From NCBI RefSeq assembly GCF_027923385.1, contig NZ_BSEC01000001.1, positions 3,198,001-3,262,000 of the forward strand: a DNA stretch of 64,000 nt. Reading direction: 5' to 3'. The notes beneath the pieces were generated by a model that searched no databases, was not told the origin of the DNA, and was given only the letters and a program-made list of their open reading frames with translations. Shown here in pieces: positions 5,193 to 14,135 of this stretch. Made by a program: the position numbers and the translations under genes. Position 1 is the stretch's first letter; the number at the start of each line of letters is the position of its first letter. The stretch comes from Methylocystis echinoides (GTDB taxonomy: Bacteria > Pseudomonadota > Alphaproteobacteria > Rhizobiales > Beijerinckiaceae).

Positions 5193-5208
5193 TGTCGCGT
5201 TGCGAACA
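5193..5208. promoter_or_regulatory. NifA upstream activator sequence between nifA and nifB
   Basis: An exact TGT-N10-ACA match (TGT-CGCGTTGCGA-ACA), the established NifA binding consensus. It lies 103 bases before the nifB -24 element and about 155 bases from the nifA one, so a single site could serve both divergent promoters. Confidence 0.75.
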
Positions 5209-5311: not shown

Positions 5312-5326
5312 TGGCACGCTTGTTGC
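5312..5326 (+). promoter_or_regulatory. Sigma-54 (-24/-12) promoter for the nifB operon
   Basis: An exact TGGCAC-GCTTG-TTGC match, 88 bases before the nifB ATG, with a NifA box 103 bases upstream. Transcription would start near 5338, leaving a leader of about 77 bases. It probably drives the nifB-to-ferredoxin operon that ends near 12.9 kb. Confidence 0.9.
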
Positions 5327-5414: not shown

Positions 5415-6977
5415 ATGGACGACTCTCACTCCTTCGACGCCTATCAGTCCGAGCCGGCCGCGCTCGACGACATCATGCAGAAGATCGCCGAGCACAAAGG
5501 CTGCGGAACCACCGGCGGCAGCGGCAAGGCGAGTTGCGGCTCCGGCGCCGGAGAAGGCGACATGCCCGCCGATATCTGGGAGAAGGTGAAGAACCATCCC
5601 TGCTACAGCGAGGAAGCGCATCACCATTATGCGCGCATGCATGTCGCCGTCGCGCCGGCCTGCAACATCCAGTGCAATTACTGTAACCGCAAATATGACT
5701 GCGCCAATGAATCGCGCCCAGGCGTCGTCAGCGAAAAGCTGACGCCCGAACAGGCCGCGAAGAAGGTGCTCGCCGTCGCCTCCGCGATTCCGCAGATGAC
5801 GGTTCTCGGCATCGCCGGCCCCGGCGATCCGCTGGCGAACCCCGGCAAGACGTTCAGGACCTTCGAGCTGATCTCCGAGGCCGCGCCCGACATCAAGCTC
5901 TGCCTGTCGACAAATGGCCTGGCCCTGCCCGACCACGTCGAGACGATCAAGCGCTTCAACGTGGACCATGTCACGATCACGATCAACATGACCGATCCCG
6001 ACATTGGCGCGGAAATCTATCCCTGGGTGTTCTGGAAGCATAAGCGCGTCACCGGCAAGGAGGCCGCGAAAATCCTCACCGACCGCCAGTTGCAGGGGCT
6101 CGAGATGCTGACTGCGAACGGCATTCTCTGCAAGGTGAACTCGGTGATGATCCCCGGCATCAACGACGACCACCTCGTCACGGTGAACCGCGAAGTGAAG
6201 TCGCGCGGCGCCTTTCTGCACAACATCATGCCGCTCATCTCGGCCCCGGAGCACGGCACGGTCTTCGGCCTCAACGGCCAGCGTGGTCCGTCCGCGCAGG
6301 AGCTCAAGGCCCTGCAGGACAGCTGCGAAGGCGAGATGAACATGATGCGTCACTGCCGCCAGTGCCGCGCCGACGCGGTGGGCCTGCTCGGCGAAGACCG
6401 CAGCGCCGAGTTCACGACCGACAAGATCATGGAGATGGACGTCAACTACGATCTCACCGCGCGTCAGGCCTATCAGGAGAAGGTCGAGGAAGAGCGTCTG
6501 GCCAAGGTCGCCGCGCGCAACGCCGAGCTTGAAACGCTTGCGGGCGAAAACGCGGATCTTTCGATCCTCGTCGCCGTGGCGACCAAGGGCAGCGGCCGCA
6601 TCAACGAACATTTCGGCCATGCGACCGAGTTCCAGATCTACGAACTCTCCAGCGCCGGCGCGAAATTTGTCGGCCACCGCCGCGTCGACCTCTATTGCCA
6701 GGGCGGTTACGGCGAAGAGGACGCGCTCGAGACCGTCATCCGCGCGATCAACGACTGCACCGCCGTCTTCGTCGCCAAGATCGGCCATTGTCCGAAGGAC
6801 GATCTGATCAAGGCCGGCATCGATCCGGTCGATCAATACGCCTACGAGTTCATCGAACAGTCGGCGATCGCCTATTTCAAGGATTATCTCGCCAAGGTGA
6901 AGAGCGGCGAGATCGCCCATGTCACGCGCGGAGACGCCGACATCCGTCAAGGCGCCTTCGTCCCCGTGAACGCGTAA
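5415..6977 (+). CDS. nifB: NifB, FeMo-cofactor core (NifB-co) synthase
   Basis: A 520-residue radical-SAM enzyme that fuses two [4Fe-4S] units and inserts the central carbide to make NifB-co, the precursor of FeMo-co. The SAM-cluster motif is C83-x3-C87-x2-C90 (CNIQCNYC). A NifX/NafY-like domain occupies roughly residues 400-500 ([18 protein letters not shown]). The ATG follows a GAGG ribosome site; an open frame continues 64 codons further upstream but would contain the sigma-54 promoter, so it is rejected. First gene of a tightly packed operon, with fdxN 23 bases downstream. Identity is secure. Confidence 0.97.
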
Positions 6978-7000: not shown

Positions 7001-7225
7001 ATGGCCTACAAGATCGTCGCTTCCCAATGCACGTCGTGCTCCGCCTGCGAAGCGGAATGCCCGAACGTCGCCATCTCCGAGAAAAACGGCACCTTCGTGA
7101 TCAACCCGAAGAAGTGCACCGAGTGCATCGGCCACTTCGACATTCCGCAATGCGTGGCCGTCTGCCCCGTCGACAACACCTGTGTCATCGACACGTCCTA
7201 TCCTCGTTATCAGCCGAGCGCCTAA
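7001..7225 (+). CDS. fdxN: FdxN-type 2[4Fe-4S] ferredoxin
   Basis: A 74-residue ferredoxin directly after nifB. Cysteines 10, 13, 16, 20 form a classical C-x2-C-x2-C-x3-C site. Cysteines 39, 42, 51, 55 form a second site with the long insertion (C-x2-C-x8-C-x3-C) typical of NifB-linked ferredoxins. FdxN-type proteins feed electrons to nitrogenase or to NifB itself. The ATG is preceded by AAAGGAG. The stop codon is immediately followed by the next gene's ATG, so the two are translationally linked. Confidence 0.93.
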
Positions 7226-7567
7226 ATGAAGATCGAATTCACCGCCGCCGCCGAGAAATTCATCCGTCGCCTCGTCACCTTCGATGGCGGGCCTGGATAT
7301 GGTCTCCGCCTGCTCGTGTCGCCTGGCGGATGCTCGGGCATGTCAGCCGAGTTCTCCGTCGAGCCCACGCCGAAAGAGGGCGAGGAGGTCTATCCGCATG
7401 GGCAGTTCAAGCTGTTCCTGCCGGCGCAGAGCCGCCTGCTCCTCGACGGCGTGACGATCGACTTCAAGGAGACCGCCACCTCCACCGGCTTCGTCTTCAT
7501 TGATCCGAAAGCGAAGAGCTGCGGTTGCTCGACGACCGACGCGCCCGCTTTCGAGGAAGCGAACTGA
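7226..7567 (+). CDS. HesB/IscA-family Fe-S carrier (nifB-linked)
   Basis: A 113-residue A-type Fe-S carrier. The family's conserved cysteines are visible in PGGCSGM and in SCGCS near the C-terminus. The start codon abuts the fdxN stop. Such proteins hold or hand over iron or [4Fe-4S] clusters. In this position it may supply clusters to NifB, which is inference from context. The middle region is more divergent than in the second IscA-like protein of the window (23720-24040), so the two are probably not interchangeable. In some genomes this gene is annotated only as an iron-sulfur assembly accessory protein. Confidence 0.85.
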   Translation: MKIEFTAAAEKFIRRLVTFDGGPGYGLRLLVSPGGCSGMSAEFSVEPTPKEGEEVYPHGQFKLFLPAQSRLLLDGVTIDFKETATSTGFVFIDPKAKSCGCSTTDAPAFEEAN

Positions 7568-7576
7568 GATCAGAAC

Positions 7577-8113
7577 ATGGACCATGGCGCGGCAGTTCAG
7601 ACAGAGGCGATCGGCGCGCAGGATTTCCCTGCCGCAGCCATCCTTGGAGAGGGCCTTCCCGAGGAAGCCAATCGCCTCCTGCACGCCGCCGCCATGTCCT
7701 ATGACGAAGACGACGTCGCGCTGAAACATCTGATGGCGGCGCGGCTCCTCGCGCCCACACATCCGGCGACGCTCATTGGCCTCTACCGTTTCTATTTCTA
7801 CAAGGGCCGCCTGGCGGAGGCGCTCGCCATCGCCCGCACCTGCCTGACGCGCGCGGCGATCGACCATTCCCTGCCGCTCGACTGGCGTCTTGTCCGCCCG
7901 TCCGACGCCGCCTTTGGCGATTACGACGCGATTGGTCCGCGCTTCTTCATGTTCTCTCTCAAGGGCTACGCCTATCTGAACATGCGCCTCGGCGAACTTG
8001 CGGAAAGCGCCGCCGCCATCGACAAGCTTCTTGAGCTCGATCCAAAGGACAAGGTCGGCGCCCAGGTTCTCCGGGATGTGCTTGAACGCAAGGGGCTTGA
8101 AGATGTCGACTGA
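7577..8113 (+). CDS. TPR-repeat protein of the nif operon
   Basis: A 178-residue, probably cytoplasmic, helical protein. Tetratricopeptide-like pairs are visible around residues 45-90 (ALKHLMAARLLAPTHPATL, then YKGRLAEALAIARTCL) and 125-165 (GYAYLNMRLGELAESAAAI, then KLLELDPKD). There is no signal peptide, no cysteine cluster and no catalytic motif. TPRs usually mediate protein contacts. Its end overlaps the start of the LRV gene by 11 bases, so the two are probably co-translated and may work together. Specific function unknown; it is not one of the classical named Nif proteins. Confidence 0.75.
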   Translation: MDHGAAVQTEAIGAQDFPAAAILGEGLPEEANRLLHAAAMSYDEDDVALKHLMAARLLAPTHPATLIGLYRFYFYKGRLAEALAIARTCLTRAAIDHSLPLDWRLVRPSDAAFGDYDAIGPRFFMFSLKGYAYLNMRLGELAESAAAIDKLLELDPKDKVGAQVLRDVLERKGLEDVD

Positions 8114-8903
8114 CGACATTGACGAAGCCATCGACTGGCAGGGCGCCGCCGTCGACTGCGCGACATGTCCGCATCAGGACCGGCTTGCCGACGGCCGCTG
8201 CAAGCCTTTGCGCGCCTGCGTGCAGGATCGCTATGCGCGCCGGATTGATCGCTTCTTCGACTGGAACGCGGATCTCGCCCGCGATTATGTCGCGCATCCC
8301 TATTTCGAGGTCCGCGCCTGCGCCGCAAAGGCCGCGGAAATCTTTCTTCTGCCGGCCATGCTCGACGATCCGGAAGAAGCGGTGCGCTGGAGCGCCGCCC
8401 ACCGGCTCCCGCGCCGCTACATTCTCAGGCTCCGGAACGATCCCCATCGTGAAGTCCGCATCCGCATCGCGGGCCGGCTGGAGGGAACCGACCTCCTGCC
8501 GATGCTCTCGGATGAAGACTATGCGGTGCGTCAGGCGGTGGCCAAGCGGCTGCCGGCGGACATGCTGGTCCTGATGATCAATGACGCCGACGCCAGCGTG
8601 CGCCGCATCGTCGCGAGCAGGATCGCGCAGGATGCGCTGATGCGGCTCGCACGCGACAAGGACCCCGTGGTGCGGCTCGAAGCGGCGAAGCGTCTCGAAC
8701 CGCCGGATCTAGGCGGACTTCTGAAGGACGCAGACTGGCGCGTCCGTTATGAGGTCGCGCAACGCGCGGAACCGAAGATCATCGCGCCGCTTGCGCACGA
8801 CGCGGACCCGCTCGTGCGCGAATGCGCGATCGAACGACTTGCCGCCTGCGGCAGGGAGCCGCCTTCCAACGTCATCTTCGCACAGAAGCGGAGCGATCCA
8901 TGA
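8103..8903 (+). CDS. Leucine-rich-variant (LRV) repeat protein with N-terminal [4Fe-4S] site
   Basis: A 266-residue protein with cysteines 19, 22, 33 and 39 near the N-terminus, followed by about eight degenerate helical repeats rich in LPxD, VRxxVA and LARDxDPxVRxEAA motifs. This matches the LRV protein found near nifB in Azotobacter vinelandii, where the N-terminal cysteines bind a [4Fe-4S] cluster. The reaction or partner is not established in the family. A structural or assembly role in FeMo-co or Fe-S maturation is inferred from constant nif linkage. It overlaps the TPR gene by 11 bases and nifZ by 4 bases (ATGA). Confidence 0.88.
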   Translation: MSTDDIDEAIDWQGAAVDCATCPHQDRLADGRCKPLRACVQDRYARRIDRFFDWNADLARDYVAHPYFEVRACAAKAAEIFLLPAMLDDPEEAVRWSAAHRLPRRYILRLRNDPHREVRIRIAGRLEGTDLLPMLSDEDYAVRQAVAKRLPADMLVLMINDADASVRRIVASRIAQDALMRLARDKDPVVRLEAAKRLEPPDLGGLLKDADWRVRYEVAQRAEPKIIAPLAHDADPLVRECAIERLAACGREPPSNVIFAQKRSDP

Positions 8904-9193
8904 CGAACATCAGCCGAGACAGCGACCACGTCGAACTCGATGGCCCGCCCTATTTCGATTACGGCGACAAGGTGCGCGCGCGTCGCACCGTGCGAAATGA
9001 CGGCACCTTTCCGGGCAAGGACATTGGCGAGATTCTCGTGAACAAGGGCGAGATCGGCTATGTCGTCAACATCGGCACCTTTCTCCAGCAGTTCTACATC
9101 TATGGCGTGGAATTTGAATCGACCGGCAACCGCGTTGGAATGAAACGCAGGGAGCTGGAGGCGCTCGAACTCGCCGACGAGGAGGATGATTGA
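8900..9193 (+). CDS. nifZ: NifZ, first copy
   Basis: A 97-residue NifZ-domain protein. The conserved features are YGDKVRARRTVRNDGTFPGKDIGEILVNKGEIGYVVNIGTF, split here across residues 21-60, then a short beta-rich region ending in FESTGNRVGMKRREL. NifZ acts as a chaperone-like factor in formation of the second P-cluster of NifDK. Its ATG overlaps the LRV stop (ATGA), and its own stop overlaps the next ATG (TGATG), so translation is coupled. The start matches family length. Confidence 0.9.
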   Translation: MTNISRDSDHVELDGPPYFDYGDKVRARRTVRNDGTFPGKDIGEILVNKGEIGYVVNIGTFLQQFYIYGVEFESTGNRVGMKRRELEALELADEEDD

Positions 9194-9423
9194 TGACCCA
9201 AGCAAGATATGACTGGGGCATGCGCGTGCGCGCGACGACCGACCTCGTCAATGACGGCTCCTATCCCGAACGGGCCGAAGACGAGCTTCTCGTCAAGAGC
9301 GGCGACGTCGGCGAAATCGTCAACATCGGCGCCCATGTCGAAACCGAGACGACGATCTACCTCGTTGAGTTTTCGCCGCAGCTCGTCGTGGGCTGTCTGG
9401 AGGAAGAGATCGAACCAGCTTAA
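9193..9423 (+). CDS. nifZ: NifZ-domain protein, second copy
   Basis: A 76-residue protein that again shows the NifZ pattern: GMRVRATTDLVNDGSYP, then LVKSGDVGEIVNIGAHVE, then YLVEFSPQLVVGCLEEEI. It begins at the last base of the preceding nifZ stop codon, so the two are tandem and translationally coupled. The two copies differ enough (basic K/R-rich tail in the first, acidic tail here) that they are unlikely to be a recent duplication. They may act as a heterodimer or at different stages of P-cluster formation, which is speculation. Confidence 0.87.
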   Translation: MTQARYDWGMRVRATTDLVNDGSYPERAEDELLVKSGDVGEIVNIGAHVETETTIYLVEFSPQLVVGCLEEEIEPA

Positions 9424-9457
9424 CCCCGCGGGCCAGGCCAGAGAAAGTAGGCGCAAC

Positions 9458-9670
9458 GTGAAAGTCATGATCCGAAGAGACTCCGACGGCATCCTGTCGG
9501 CCTATGTCCCAAAGAAGGATCTCGAAGAGCCCATCGTCGCGGTCGAAAATCCGCAGATGTGGGGCGGCTCGGTGACGCTCGCCAACGGCTGGAAGCTCCA
9601 GCTTCCTGAGATGGCCGCCGAAACGACGCTCCCCATCACTGTCGAAGCCAAGAAGATCAGCGGAGAGTAG
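9458..9670 (+). CDS. nifT: NifT/FixU family protein
   Basis: A 70-residue protein with the NifT hallmark MIRR...GxLSAYVPKKDLEEPIV followed by WGGSVTLANGW. The GTG start gives the standard N-terminus MKVMIRR; the internal ATG three codons later is less likely. NifT is widespread in nif operons, usually beside nifZ, but mutants have little phenotype and the biochemical role is unknown. It lies 34 bases after the second nifZ and one base before the next gene. Confidence 0.92.
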   Translation: MKVMIRRDSDGILSAYVPKKDLEEPIVAVENPQMWGGSVTLANGWKLQLPEMAAETTLPITVEAKKISGE

Positions 9671-9671
9671 G

Positions 9672-9944
9672 ATGACCATCGCCCCGGCGCAGCTCACCCA
9701 ACTGGACACGGCGCTGACCGGCGCCGAGGCGAATGCGCAGACGCTCGCAGCCATCAAAAAGCTGACGCCGGGGCTCATGGTCACGCGTTGCGACGCCATC
9801 GACATGCGCGAGGAGACGCCGTTCCGTGTTTACGAGCGGGTTTCGCTTTATCTCGTCGACGGACGCGACCACTGCTGGAAAATTACACAGGACCCGACAT
9901 TCGCGACCGGCGTCGCCATTGCGCCAAATGGAGTCGCATCATGA
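9672..9944 (+). CDS. Small nif-operon protein, DUF6129-like
   Basis: A 90-residue soluble protein, with an Ala/Leu-rich helical first half and a second half with alternating hydrophobic strands (TPFRVYERVSLYLVDGRDHCWKI split over residues 49-71). It resembles the uncharacterised small proteins annotated as DUF6129 in proteobacterial nif clusters. I recall this family only tentatively. It starts one base after the nifT stop, and its stop overlaps the ATG of the DegT-like gene (ATGA). One cysteine (about residue 40) and one His-Cys pair (about residue 67) are visible but no metal motif. Function unknown. Confidence 0.7.
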   Translation: MTIAPAQLTQLDTALTGAEANAQTLAAIKKLTPGLMVTRCDAIDMREETPFRVYERVSLYLVDGRDHCWKITQDPTFATGVAIAPNGVAS

Positions 9945-11092
9945 AGACCACGCTCCTGCCCCTCAACGATCCCGATCTCACGCAGAGCGATCTCGACGCC
10001 GTGATGGAGGTGCTGCAATCGCAGCGGATTTCCATGGGCGCCGTGGTCGAGATGTTCGAGACGGAGTTCGCGCAATATGTCGGAAGAAAGCACGCTGTCG
10101 CGGTTTCCAGCGGTACGGTCGGGCTTCTTCTCATTCTGCGCGCGCTGGGCGTCGGCCCAGGAGATGAAGTCGTCACCTCCGCCTATTCCTTCCGCGAGGC
10201 GGCGCATGCGATCGCGCTCACCGGCGCGCGGCCGGTGTTCGCCGATATCGACTATTGGGCGGGCACGCTCGATCCCGAAAAGGCGCGCGGCAAACTGACA
10301 GAGAAGACGCGCGCGATCGTCGCCTCCAACACCAACGGCCATCCGGCCGCCTGGGGTCCGCTCCGCGCGCTCGCAACCGAGGCGAATGTCGCCCTCATCG
10401 AGGATTCGACCGAAGCCATTGGCTCCGTCTATCAGGGAAAACTCGTCGGGTCCTTCGGAGACTGCGCATTGTTCGATTTCTCCCAACCGGGGGCGCTGAC
10501 CTGTGGCGAAGGCGGCATGATCGTCACGGATAACGACGACACAGCGGCCATGCTGCGCCGCCTGCGCAGCCGCCGGACAGAGGAGCGCGCGTCGGTGGTT
10601 CTGGGCGGCTGGGCGCCCCTGCAGGCCGGACTGAGCGATATGGCGGCGGCGCTGGGCCTCGCGCAATTGCGCCGGATCGAGCTGCTGCTTGCGCGACGCA
10701 AGCGCGTCGAGCGCTGGTTTCTCGAATATGTCCGCTCCTTCGAGGGCATCAAGGACCCCTACATCACGCCGGAAGTCGAGCAGTGCCACTGGTTCCTTTA
10801 TGTGGTCCATCTCGGCACGCGCTTCACGCGCTCCAGCCGCGACGCGATCATCGAGGATCTGCGCCAGGAAAAGCTCGACGCCTGCGCCTACGCCCATCCA
10901 CTCCATCTGACGCGCTATTATCACGATCTCGGATATCGCCGCGGCGACCTCTTCGTGACCGAGAAGGTCGCGGAACGCGCCGTCGCGCTCCCCTTCCATG
11001 CGCATCTGACCGAAGAGCAGGTCGCCTTCATCGTCGGCACGATGAAGGACGCCTCGATCAACGTCGGCGCAGGAACCGCCATTTACCTCTAG
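9941..11092 (+). CDS. DegT/DnrJ/EryC1/StrS-fold protein lacking the PLP lysine
   Basis: A 383-residue member of the sugar-aminotransferase/AHBA-synthase fold: SGTVGLLLILRALGVGPGDEV, the PLP-ring aspartate in ALIEDSTEAIGS, and GEGGMIVTDND. In active members a lysine lies eight residues before the end of the GEGG motif (typically FHxTKNxTTGEGG). Here that segment reads FSQPGALTCGEGG, so Gly184 replaces the Schiff-base lysine. It is therefore unlikely to be an ordinary aminotransferase. It is translationally coupled to the gene before it. Possible roles are a PLP or PMP sensor, a dehydratase-like enzyme, or a scaffold. The fold call is secure, the activity unknown. Confidence 0.85.
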   Translation: MKTTLLPLNDPDLTQSDLDAVMEVLQSQRISMGAVVEMFETEFAQYVGRKHAVAVSSGTVGLLLILRALGVGPGDEVVTSAYSFREAAHAIALTGARPVFADIDYWAGTLDPEKARGKLTEKTRAIVASNTNGHPAAWGPLRALATEANVALIEDSTEAIGSVYQGKLVGSFGDCALFDFSQPGALTCGEGGMIVTDNDDTAAMLRRLRSRRTEERASVVLGGWAPLQAGLSDMAAALGLAQLRRIELLLARRKRVERWFLEYVRSFEGIKDPYITPEVEQCHWFLYVVHLGTRFTRSSRDAIIEDLRQEKLDACAYAHPLHLTRYYHDLGYRRGDLFVTEKVAERAVALPFHAHLTEEQVAFIVGTMKDASINVGAGTAIYL

Positions 11093-11126: not shown

Positions 11127-11432
11127 ATGCCAACGATAACGATCCTTCCTTCTGGAAAATCCGTCGAGGCCGAGACCGGCAGCCGCCTGCTCGACGCCCT
11201 GCTGGCCGCCGGCGAACCGATCGTCAGCAAATGTGGCGGCGAGGCGAACTGCGGGCAATGCCACGTCTTCGTTCAGGAGGGGAGAAAGAGCCTCTCCAAG
11301 ACGACGCGCACCGAAAACGAGAAACTCGATTCAATCGTCGGCGTGAGCTCGAAATCGCGCCTCGCCTGTCAGGCTCTTCTCGGCGCCGAAAATGTAACTG
11401 TCGAATTACTGGGGTTCGGCTCGGGCTTCTAA
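11127..11432 (+). CDS. Plant-type [2Fe-2S] ferredoxin
   Basis: A 101-residue ferredoxin with cysteines 36, 42, 45 and 81 in the C-x5-C-x2-C...C arrangement of adrenodoxin/plant-type [2Fe-2S] proteins (CGGEANCGQC). There is no signal peptide, so it acts in the cytoplasm. It lies in the nifB operon, 34 bases after the DegT-like gene. It may serve as an electron donor in cofactor maturation or to nitrogenase; the context supports a nif role but not a specific partner. The ATG follows an AGGAG site nine bases upstream. Confidence 0.9.
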   Translation: MPTITILPSGKSVEAETGSRLLDALLAAGEPIVSKCGGEANCGQCHVFVQEGRKSLSKTTRTENEKLDSIVGVSSKSRLACQALLGAENVTVELLGFGSGF

Positions 11433-11452: not shown

Positions 11453-11665
11453 ATGACCGACAAAGTTCTCATTCACGTCCGCTTCAACAACGACGGCACG
11501 GTTCTCGAAATCGGCGAGCGTCCGGCGGGACTCACCCCTCAGCAATGGTTCACCAAGCTGAGCGAGAAGGCCGGCAACGCCTTTCAGGCGCTGACCGGTG
11601 GACGCGGCATCTTCCGCATCTCGGCAGATGAGGTCACCGCGCTGAAAGCGGCGGTTCTTCAATAG
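11453..11665 (+). CDS. Uncharacterised 70-residue nif-operon protein
   Basis: I do not recognise this family. The product is 70 residues: a beta-rich first third (VLIHVRFNNDGTVLEIGERP), a helical middle (TPQQWFTKLSEKAGNAFQAL) and a C-terminal FRISADEVTALKAAVLQ. It has no cysteine, so it is not a ferredoxin. It has a strong AAGGAG ribosome site and sits 20 bases after a ferredoxin and 37 before the Sir2-like gene, clearly inside the operon. It may be a small binding partner of one of its neighbours. Codon use fits the flanking genes, so I regard it as real. Confidence 0.7.
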   Translation: MTDKVLIHVRFNNDGTVLEIGERPAGLTPQQWFTKLSEKAGNAFQALTGGRGIFRISADEVTALKAAVLQ

Positions 11666-11702: not shown

Positions 11703-12587
11703 ATGATCGGTGAAATCGTTACAGCCTTTCGTCAAGGCGACGTCATTCCCTATCTGGGGCCGGGCGTGACGGCCCTGTCGGGGGAGGGCGCTCCCCCGGC
11801 TCAACCGGAAAAACTCGTCGCCGAACTCGTCGCCGGCGCCACGGTGCCGCACAAGATTCGCAACAATCTCACGGCGGCCGCGCAATACATCGAGAACTTC
11901 AAGCATCGCAAGACGCTGACCTGTCTCATGGCGAAGGCCTTCTCCGGCTCGCCCGAGCCGGGTCCCTTCCTTCAATGGCTCGCCGCACAGGACAGCATCC
12001 CCCTCGTCGTCCATGCGTGGTACGATGATCTACCGCTCAAGGCGTTCGCCCATCGCACGGATTGGGGCATTGTCCAGGGCGTGACGCAAAGTGAACATTT
12101 CGGCGACTGGGTGAACTGGTTCCGGCCGGACGGCTCTGTGGCGCCGACGCGGGAATTCATTCGCGACGGCTCCGGCGCCAAGGCGCCTGCGGAAGCGCCG
12201 GCGGAGACACGATCCTGGCGCACGCTCGTCTATCAGCCGCTCGGCTGTGTGACCCCGGGGTCCAATTTCATCGTGTCCGACTCCGATTATGTCGAGGTTC
12301 TGACGGAAATCGATATCCAAACCCCCATCCCGGACACGGTGCAGGATATCCGCAAGGGACGCCATTTCCTCTTCCTCGGCTGTCGCTTCGCGAACCAGCT
12401 GGAGCGCAGCTTCGCGCGTCAGATCATGAAGCGCTCCTCGGACCGGCATTGGGCGGTGATCGAGGGCGCCATCACGCGCAATGAGGAGAAGTTCCTTCGC
12501 GAGCAGAATATCACGCGGATCGACGCCAATCTCGCCGACTTCGTCGAGTCGCTGACGCAGTCGAGTCCGGCAGCCGCCGCAGCCTGA
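11703..12587 (+). CDS. Sir2-like (SIR2_2-type) protein of the nif operon
   Basis: A 294-residue protein with the Rossmann start of SIR2-like proteins (IPYLGPGVTALSGEGAP) and a C-terminal half with FLFLGCRFANQLERSF followed by a segment (WAVIEGAITRNEEKFLREQNI) like the NAD-fold end of the SIR2_2 family. The GAGxSxxSGIPxFR and catalytic HG motifs of true sirtuin deacylases are not intact, so NAD hydrolysis or deacylation is not assured. Similar proteins occur in nif clusters of other diazotrophs, with unknown function. A role in NAD(P) sensing or protein modification of nitrogenase would be speculation. Confidence 0.72.
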   Translation: MIGEIVTAFRQGDVIPYLGPGVTALSGEGAPPAQPEKLVAELVAGATVPHKIRNNLTAAAQYIENFKHRKTLTCLMAKAFSGSPEPGPFLQWLAAQDSIPLVVHAWYDDLPLKAFAHRTDWGIVQGVTQSEHFGDWVNWFRPDGSVAPTREFIRDGSGAKAPAEAPAETRSWRTLVYQPLGCVTPGSNFIVSDSDYVEVLTEIDIQTPIPDTVQDIRKGRHFLFLGCRFANQLERSFARQIMKRSSDRHWAVIEGAITRNEEKFLREQNITRIDANLADFVESLTQSSPAAAAA

Positions 12588-12608: not shown

Positions 12609-12941
12609 ATGATCGAGGATCTTCCCGTCGTCTTCAAATATCACGTTTTCACCTGCTTTCAGCAGCGTCCGCCGGGACATCCGCGCGGCAGCTGCATGAG
12701 TTCAGGCGCAAAACCGCTCTGGGATCGCCTGCAGGCAAAACTCAACGCGCAGCCAAACCCGGATGTCTCCGTCACGGCGACAGGCTGCCTTGGATTTTGC
12801 CGCGCGGGCCCGTTGATGGTCGTTTATCCGGAAGGCGTCTGGTACACGCCACGCACGGAAGCCGACATCGATGAGATTCTCCAGTCTCATTTCGTCGAGG
12901 GCAAGCCCGTGGAATGGCTCATCATCGTGCCACAGCTTTAA
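12609..12941 (+). CDS. Thioredoxin-fold [2Fe-2S] ferredoxin
   Basis: A 110-residue protein of the (2Fe-2S) ferredoxin group with a thioredoxin-like fold, related to NuoE and to the small [2Fe-2S] ferredoxins of Azotobacter and clostridia. Four cysteines (16, 29, 60, 64) fit the C-x12-C...C-x3-C pattern, the last pair in GCLGFC, followed by GPLMVVYPEGVWY typical of the family. Probable cytoplasmic electron carrier. It is the last gene of the nifB operon, followed within 30 bases by a strong hairpin terminator. Confidence 0.88.
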   Translation: MIEDLPVVFKYHVFTCFQQRPPGHPRGSCMSSGAKPLWDRLQAKLNAQPNPDVSVTATGCLGFCRAGPLMVVYPEGVWYTPRTEADIDEILQSHFVEGKPVEWLIIVPQL

Positions 12942-14034: not shown

Positions 14035-14050
14035 TGTCGGCTTTGACACA
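14035..14050. promoter_or_regulatory. NifA upstream activator sequence before nifH
   Basis: An exact TGT-N10-ACA match (TGT-CGGCTTTGAC-ACA), 70 bases before the nifH -24 element. It lies between nifH and the divergent receiver gene and could act on both. Confidence 0.75.
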
Positions 14051-14120: not shown

Positions 14121-14135
14121 TGGCACGCGCTTTGC
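14121..14135 (+). promoter_or_regulatory. Sigma-54 (-24/-12) promoter for nifHDK
   Basis: An exact TGGCAC-GCGCT-TTGC match. The expected start is near 14147, giving a leader of about 130 bases before the nifH ATG. With the NifA box just upstream this is the main nitrogenase promoter. Confidence 0.93.

Follow-up and report, generated by a model that had tools for sequence, protein, structure and literature searches.

A Lysine-Free DegT-Fold Protein Encoded in nif Operons as a Candidate Nitrogenase Maturation Factor

Introduction

DegT enzymes are dimers whose active sites lie at the subunit interface, and the aminotransferases among them need a lysine that holds the cofactor pyridoxal phosphate (PLP) as an internal aldimine. 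The ColD and RfbH/E1 dehydrases carry histidine at the lysine column and use pyridoxamine phosphate (PMP) chemistry. The cysteine desulfurase NifS is also a protein of PLP fold-type I.

The proteins studied here are named aminotransferases in the databases and in one paper from 2011. In the passages of PMC3899966 considered here, BRADO5411 is given as a putative DegT aminotransferase beside genes for NifZ, LRV, TPR, and SufA-like proteins, and BRADO5414, 5416, 5418, and 5424 are described as a conserved operon of Azorhizobium and Nod-independent bradyrhizobia. According to the same passages, this operon is absent from B. japonicum USDA110, S. meliloti 1021, and M. loti MAFF303099, three rhizobia without nitrogen fixation in the free-living state. 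Up-regulation of the cluster in bacteroids of Azorhizobium is also reported there, and a symbiotic role was inferred (PMC3899966). The fold family and lysine-less PLP-fold proteins are already known; no description was found of a lysine-free DegT subfamily that is dedicated to nif and has a reversed pocket. Full-text literature searches returned no account of the lysine loss, and the suggestion of an undescribed activity in an earlier note on this locus holds as far as the literature was searched.

Results and Discussion

The window analyzed is a stretch of 64,000 nucleotides from Methylocystis echinoides. The gene of interest occupies exactly positions 9941–11092 of its forward strand, starts with ATG, and encodes 383 amino acids. 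It overlaps the stop codon of a 90-codon reading frame (s90, 9672–9944, +) as ATGA, confirming the overlap with an upstream gene inside a nif operon described previously. The DegT fold was likewise borne out, the Pfam family DegT_DnrJ_EryC1 (PF01041) matching residues 13–368 with 297.8 bits (cut-off, 19.8). At the lysine site, the protein reads FDFSQPGALTCGEGG; residues 180–190 (FSQPGALTCGE) are encoded by positions 10478–10510 (+), and residue 184 by 10490–10492. Gly184 aligns with Lys186 of the solved GDP-perosamine synthase (GNK at the site), and the column is anchored by the K186A mutant of that enzyme, which shows GNA there, so that the replacement of the PLP lysine by glycine noted earlier was confirmed. 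Beyond the family level, none of the curated NCBIfam cut-offs (PseC, ArnB, DesI, WecE, and others) was reached by the window protein, the best value being 229.7 bits against 423.5; the RfbH equivalog cut-off was missed as well (142.4 against 423 bits). The AlphaFold2 model, calculated as a monomer, has a pLDDT of 85.9, with low confidence in the C-terminal tail and in residues 211–230. Pocket geometry was thus deduced from alignment and not from model coordinates.

The gene lies in a compact operon encoded entirely on the forward strand, in which no intergenic gap exceeds 37 bases. It begins with nifB (5415–6977; TIGR01290 with 678 bits, cut-off 344; start chosen by reading), followed by genes for a 4Fe-4S ferredoxin (7001–7225), a HesB/IscA-type Fe-S assembly protein (7226–7567), a TPR-like protein below the Pfam cut-offs (7577–8113), an LRV protein with an Fe-S domain (8103–8903), two NifZ-domain proteins (8900–9193 and 9193–9423), and NifT (9458–9670; TIGR02934 with 108.8 bits on the longer reading frame 9209–9670). 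The s90 and DegT genes come next, succeeded by those for a 2Fe-2S ferredoxin (11127–11432), a 70-amino-acid protein without a family match (11453–11665), a SIR2-like protein (11703–12587; PF13289), and a thioredoxin-like 2Fe-2S ferredoxin (12609–12941). A candidate NifA/sigma-54 signature precedes the operon, consisting of a NifA-type upstream site, TGT-N10-ACA (5193–5208, +), and an exact sigma-54 promoter match, TGGCACGCTTGTTGC (5312–5326, +), both scored against the usual consensus forms. Window-wide counts of the two motifs are not above chance, and the argument is their placement before nifB. The nifA gene is oriented divergently to the operon. A second NifA-type site (14035–14050) and an exact sigma-54 match (14121–14135) were also seen before nifH.

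To follow the lysine column beyond the window, 214 relatives were found in a genome scan and the best 80 of them kept; together with the window protein and seven further copies, these form an alignment of 88 sequences. One row with a broken frame (L073) was counted in the tallies over 88 sequences and left out of the 87 rows used for entropy, charge, and lysine counts. The motif F-D-[FL]-[SAT]-[QE]-[PA], mostly FDFSQP or FDFAQP, stands at the lysine site in 80/80 kept relatives (best 80 of 214). Column 184 holds lysine in 0/88 sequences; its residues are Gly (39), Ser (32), Leu (7), Phe (6), and Met, Ala, Val, and Gln (one each), and its entropy is 1.90 compared with a core mean of 1.02. Lysine is also missing there in 20 further loci of the family, which may repeat species already among the 80 (13 Gly, five Ser, one Met, and one Cys), and in three intact plasmid-borne copies (L124–L126; two from Paraburkholderia and one from Methylococcus). 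Since the motif stands in all 80 kept relatives and lysine in none of the 88 sequences, Gly184 is not a sequencing error. A set of nif-operon homologues mostly retaining the lysine, which the earlier note had named as an outcome that would reduce the case to a local change, was not what was found. The alignment thus confirms that the loss is more than a local mutation, the lysine being absent from every clade member examined.

In a phylogeny built from 42 clade members together with 22 DegT proteins from outside it, the clade formed a single branch (100/100) with a long stem of 2.11 changes per site; its nearest sister is unsure, because several outgroup branches are long. Lysine occupies column 184 in 21 of the 22 outgroup proteins and histidine in the remaining one. 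A search of 16 genomes with the clade profile separated eight members (466–697 bits) from the best outsider (257 bits). Values of dN/dS ranged from 0.005 to 0.205 over 46 pairs within five groups, some dS values being near saturation, and the clade is under purifying selection. Two Bradyrhizobium records carry broken DegT frames, one with an in-frame stop (L073, between 8675 and 8682) and one with a frame change (L127, 3829–4044 and 4031–4954). They are what might suggest a pseudogene or local mutation; however, with lysine missing in 88/88 sequences and dN/dS far below 1, this explanation retains practically no probability and is ruled out for the clade as a whole. In a contig labelled Chitinivibrionia and probably misbinned (L008), a DegT protein 67% identical to that of the window was observed in the same gene order.

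ArnB and GDP-perosamine synthase served as alignment references for placing the pocket columns. In such enzymes, a serine binds the PLP phosphate, an aspartate faces the pyridine nitrogen, and the partner subunit contributes an asparagine and an arginine. The ring aspartate, reported earlier as still present, is Asp155 and was found in 88/88 clade sequences, as was Glu158; a stacking aromatic residue (F/W/Y) at position 84 occurs in 87/88, and the SGT loop is kept, with Thr59 in 79/88. The serine that binds the PLP phosphate is replaced by Asp179 in 88/88 sequences compared with serine in 22/22 outgroup proteins, and the pocket histidine by Asn130 in 88/88 compared with His130 in 21/22. The partner-subunit asparagine column is glutamine in 82/88 sequences and the arginine column is variable, while His134 (86/88) and Cys188 (83/88) are largely constant. 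Over 12 pocket columns, the residues K, R, D, and E sum to a net charge of −3 in 38 of the 42 clade rows, the other four having −2 or −4; among the 22 outgroup proteins, 21 have +1 or 0 and one has −1. As a set, the 12 columns show no significant excess of conservation over the remaining positions (p = 0.09); the ten without the drifting columns 184 and 230, an exclusion chosen after the data had been seen, have a mean entropy of 0.39 (p = 0.005). Conservation above the average was also seen at 42 loop positions located where the central strands end (p = 0.0016). By alignment, the pocket is rebuilt rather than merely decayed.

The sequence excludes transamination via an internal aldimine, barring a lysine contributed from another position; Lys271 (87/87 rows), Lys342 (85), or Lys369 (86), all conserved specifically in the clade, could be a migrated catalytic lysine. 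Phosphate binding beside the invariant Asp179 seems unlikely though not impossible. Lys-to-Ala mutants of relatives have been solved with PLP, judging by the titles of 4oca and 3nys, so that the loss of the lysine alone does not stop PLP binding; moreover, PLP binding would explain the retention of Asp155 and the aromatic residue at 84, which counts against a PLP-free reading. These points, the SGT loop, and GDP-perosamine synthase as the best PDB match (TM about 0.87) speak for an enzyme that binds PLP or PMP without an internal aldimine and acts, like ColD, on an amino sugar or another amino compound in diazotrophs. However, the histidine replacement of ColD, which the earlier note had considered, was not encountered (His in 0/88 sequences at column 184, where the residue varies); the phosphate-site serine and the partner arginine are lost as described above, and no sugar gene is present among the identified genes of the nifB operon. 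Lysine-less use of PMP is weakened accordingly, and a ColD-like enzyme is considered unlikely. A vitamin B6 or amino-donor sensor that adjusts the assembly of nitrogenase would account for the kept fold and the kept part of the ring pocket; it is weakened by the invariant aspartate in place of the phosphate-site serine and by the changed partner-subunit columns, and the reversed pocket charge and the lack of any added output domain by Pfam make this earlier suggestion very unlikely.

The conserved residues may instead serve a new enzyme in which the pocket Asp, Glu, His, and Asn, together with the mostly conserved Cys188 and perhaps a metal, carry out PLP-free chemistry. The near-invariance of these residues and the conserved strand-end loops favor this main rival, but the cysteine occupies the same column in ArnB and is not invariant in the clade, no substrate is suggested by the operon, and we know of no fold-type-I enzyme of such a PLP-free kind; it is therefore regarded as rather doubtful. 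A dead subunit complementing the active site of a DegT partner that bears the lysine, in the way LCB1 completes that of LCB2, would agree with the dimeric architecture of DegT enzymes and their interface sites. However, two clade-bearing genomes (G127 and G114, with 14 and 11 first-look candidates, all scored) yielded no further DegT protein at E 1e-20, and the sole further match at this threshold in the window genome (L081; G000:C1:286787–287935) is of the RfbH type, with 673.6 bits to the RfbH equivalog and histidine at the lysine column. As a lysine-bearing partner was thus not found at E 1e-20 in any of these three genomes, a dead subunit is highly improbable.

Outside the catalytic core, the tail at about residues 372–382 (SINVGAGTAIY in the window protein) has a mean entropy of 0.35 compared with 1.02 for the core, and matches to solved DegT proteins stop by profile position 372 (60 rows shown); the conserved tail is clade-specific.

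At least one of nifB, nifZ, nifT, nifH, and nifD was found in 79 of 80 DegT loci (best 80 of 214), the exception (L026) being a short contig on which other genes of the operon are present. Among these 80 loci, s90 accompanies the DegT gene in 80, NifZ in 79, nifT in 75, the SIR2-like gene in 75, and the gene for the 70-amino-acid protein in 62. A structural partner, which had been proposed with respect to NifZ/NifT, is the likeliest kind of role among the three guessed at before, but s90 is as constant a neighbor as NifZ or NifT. In five loci inspected (L022, L028, L045, L068, and L029, the last labelled Beijerinckiaceae), nifZ is separated from the nifT–s90–DegT segment by a cysteine-desulfurase-like gene. 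For the genes of this kind in L022 and in a Paraburkholderia locus (L125), NifS was the best NCBIfam fit, with 510.5 and 381.9 bits, both below the cut-off of 530.75.

The relatives of s90 match DUF6129 (PF19624) in 46 of 53 cases at E up to 1 (best 1.7e-7), and the copy beside the DegT-clade gene in L100 scores 26.3 against a cut-off of 23.6, whereas s90 of the window itself has no match to PF19624 above threshold. The RefSeq name of the L127 copy is DUF6129, and the AlphaFold2 model of s90 reaches a pLDDT of 90. The s90 profile was found in nine of 43 nifB-positive genomes; the DegT clade accompanies it in five of these and is missing from the other four. One genome (G114) contains a clade member and no s90; s90 is thus not always tied to the clade. 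In two nif clusters without DegT (L097 and L099), s90 stands between an LRV protein and a NifX/NafY-like protein that matches NifB weakly. As reported in PMC8305402 for Paraburkholderia phymatum nodules, mutation of nifA lowers the hypothetical gene Bphy_7748 next to nifT by 5.88 log2 units, and an IS630 transposase gene (Bphy_7749) follows it. Bphy_7748 is possibly an s90 gene whose DegT neighbor has been lost.

To evaluate prevalence, genomes were sampled at three taxonomic levels, with four to five candidates scored per genome in the phylum and class samples and up to 13 in the family sample, so that misses are possible; related genomes in the samples are not independent events. In the phylum sample (398 genomes), nifB exceeded its cut-off in 43, and the clade (at least 466 bits) was found in six, all nifB-positive, and in 0/355 others; one further match at 257 bits was a lysine-bearing outsider (L095) from a genome without nifB over the cut-off. 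The class sample contained the clade in 4/385 genomes, two of them new and both with the gene beside nifT and SIR2-like genes. Among the 149 genomes of the family sample, nifB was detected in 27 and the clade in 22, namely in 21 of the 27 nifB-positive genomes versus one of the 122 without nifB, and in this one the contig ends in a nifB fragment. As 37 of 43 (phylum) and six of 27 (family) nifB-positive genomes do without it, the clade is not generally needed; it is linked to nif but optional.

Overall, the protein is best explained as a repurposed, PLP-independent DegT-fold protein that serves, together with the DUF6129-like protein, as an assembly or chaperone factor for nitrogenase, a reading to which we assign a probability of about one half. 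As the lysine needed by such enzymes is lost, the pseudo-aminotransferase probably has a different job. It would keep the fold-type-I dimer, perform no transamination, and work with the DUF6129-like protein, perhaps through the clade-specific tail, as a non-catalytic factor in the maturation of the nitrogenase clusters. The conserved pocket counts against a pure scaffold, which need not keep it, and the acid-lined cavity would bind a ligand other than PLP. More specifically, and only tentatively, the old PLP pocket may now be a metal, Fe-S-precursor, or cation site, making the protein a PLP-free fold-type-I metallochaperone that serves nitrogenase cluster assembly with its DUF6129-like partner in free-living, oxygen-exposed diazotrophs. 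Several versions of the operon have a gene for a NifS-like cysteine desulfurase close upstream.

The role may perhaps lie mainly in nitrogen fixation in the free-living state, for which the distribution reported for the neighboring operon genes in PMC3899966 speaks. However, the link to this state is weak, because the considered passages of PMC3899966 read a symbiotic role and because intact copies occur in Bradyrhizobium (L061 and L066) and in the root-nodule species P. sprentiae (Paraburkholderia); the bacteroid up-regulation reported there speaks against a purely free-living role.

The clade is conserved in alpha-, beta-, and gammaproteobacterial diazotrophs and is annotated as an aminotransferase despite its lost lysine and charge-reversed cofactor site; it offers a clear example of a PLP fold that has apparently been turned to a new use. 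As a candidate nitrogenase maturation factor, the protein bears on moving nitrogen fixation into other hosts. The predictions that it holds no PLP, that its loss gives a nif phenotype, and that it forms a complex with the DUF6129-like protein are testable in diazotrophs.

Comparison with Known Systems

By name and neighbors, BRADO5411 (matched without sequence comparison) and the RefSeq entries 'DegT/DnrJ/EryC1/StrS family aminotransferase' in nif operons are the same gene as that described here, and the plasmid records L124–L126 under this RefSeq name are clade members. In the parts of these sources considered, the entries are named aminotransferases and the missing lysine is not mentioned. 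DUF6129 (PF19624) is the family of the s90 relatives, and the s90 profile extends to the four nifB-positive genomes without the DegT clade. The ColD and RfbH/E1 dehydrases share with the clade a DegT fold without the lysine; however, they hold histidine at the lysine column, whereas this column drifts in the clade. ArnB (PDB 1mdo and 4oca) has the same fold, the ring aspartate, and a cysteine in the same loop (TCAEGG), but its Lys188, its Ser183, and the asparagine and arginine of its second subunit are all changed in the clade. GDP-perosamine synthase (PDB 3bn1, 3dr4, and 3dr7) is closest in both sequence (about 33% identity) and fold; it is a sugar aminotransferase with Lys186, the phosphate-site serine, and histidine at column 130, all of which the clade lacks, and its match ends before the tail that distinguishes the clade.
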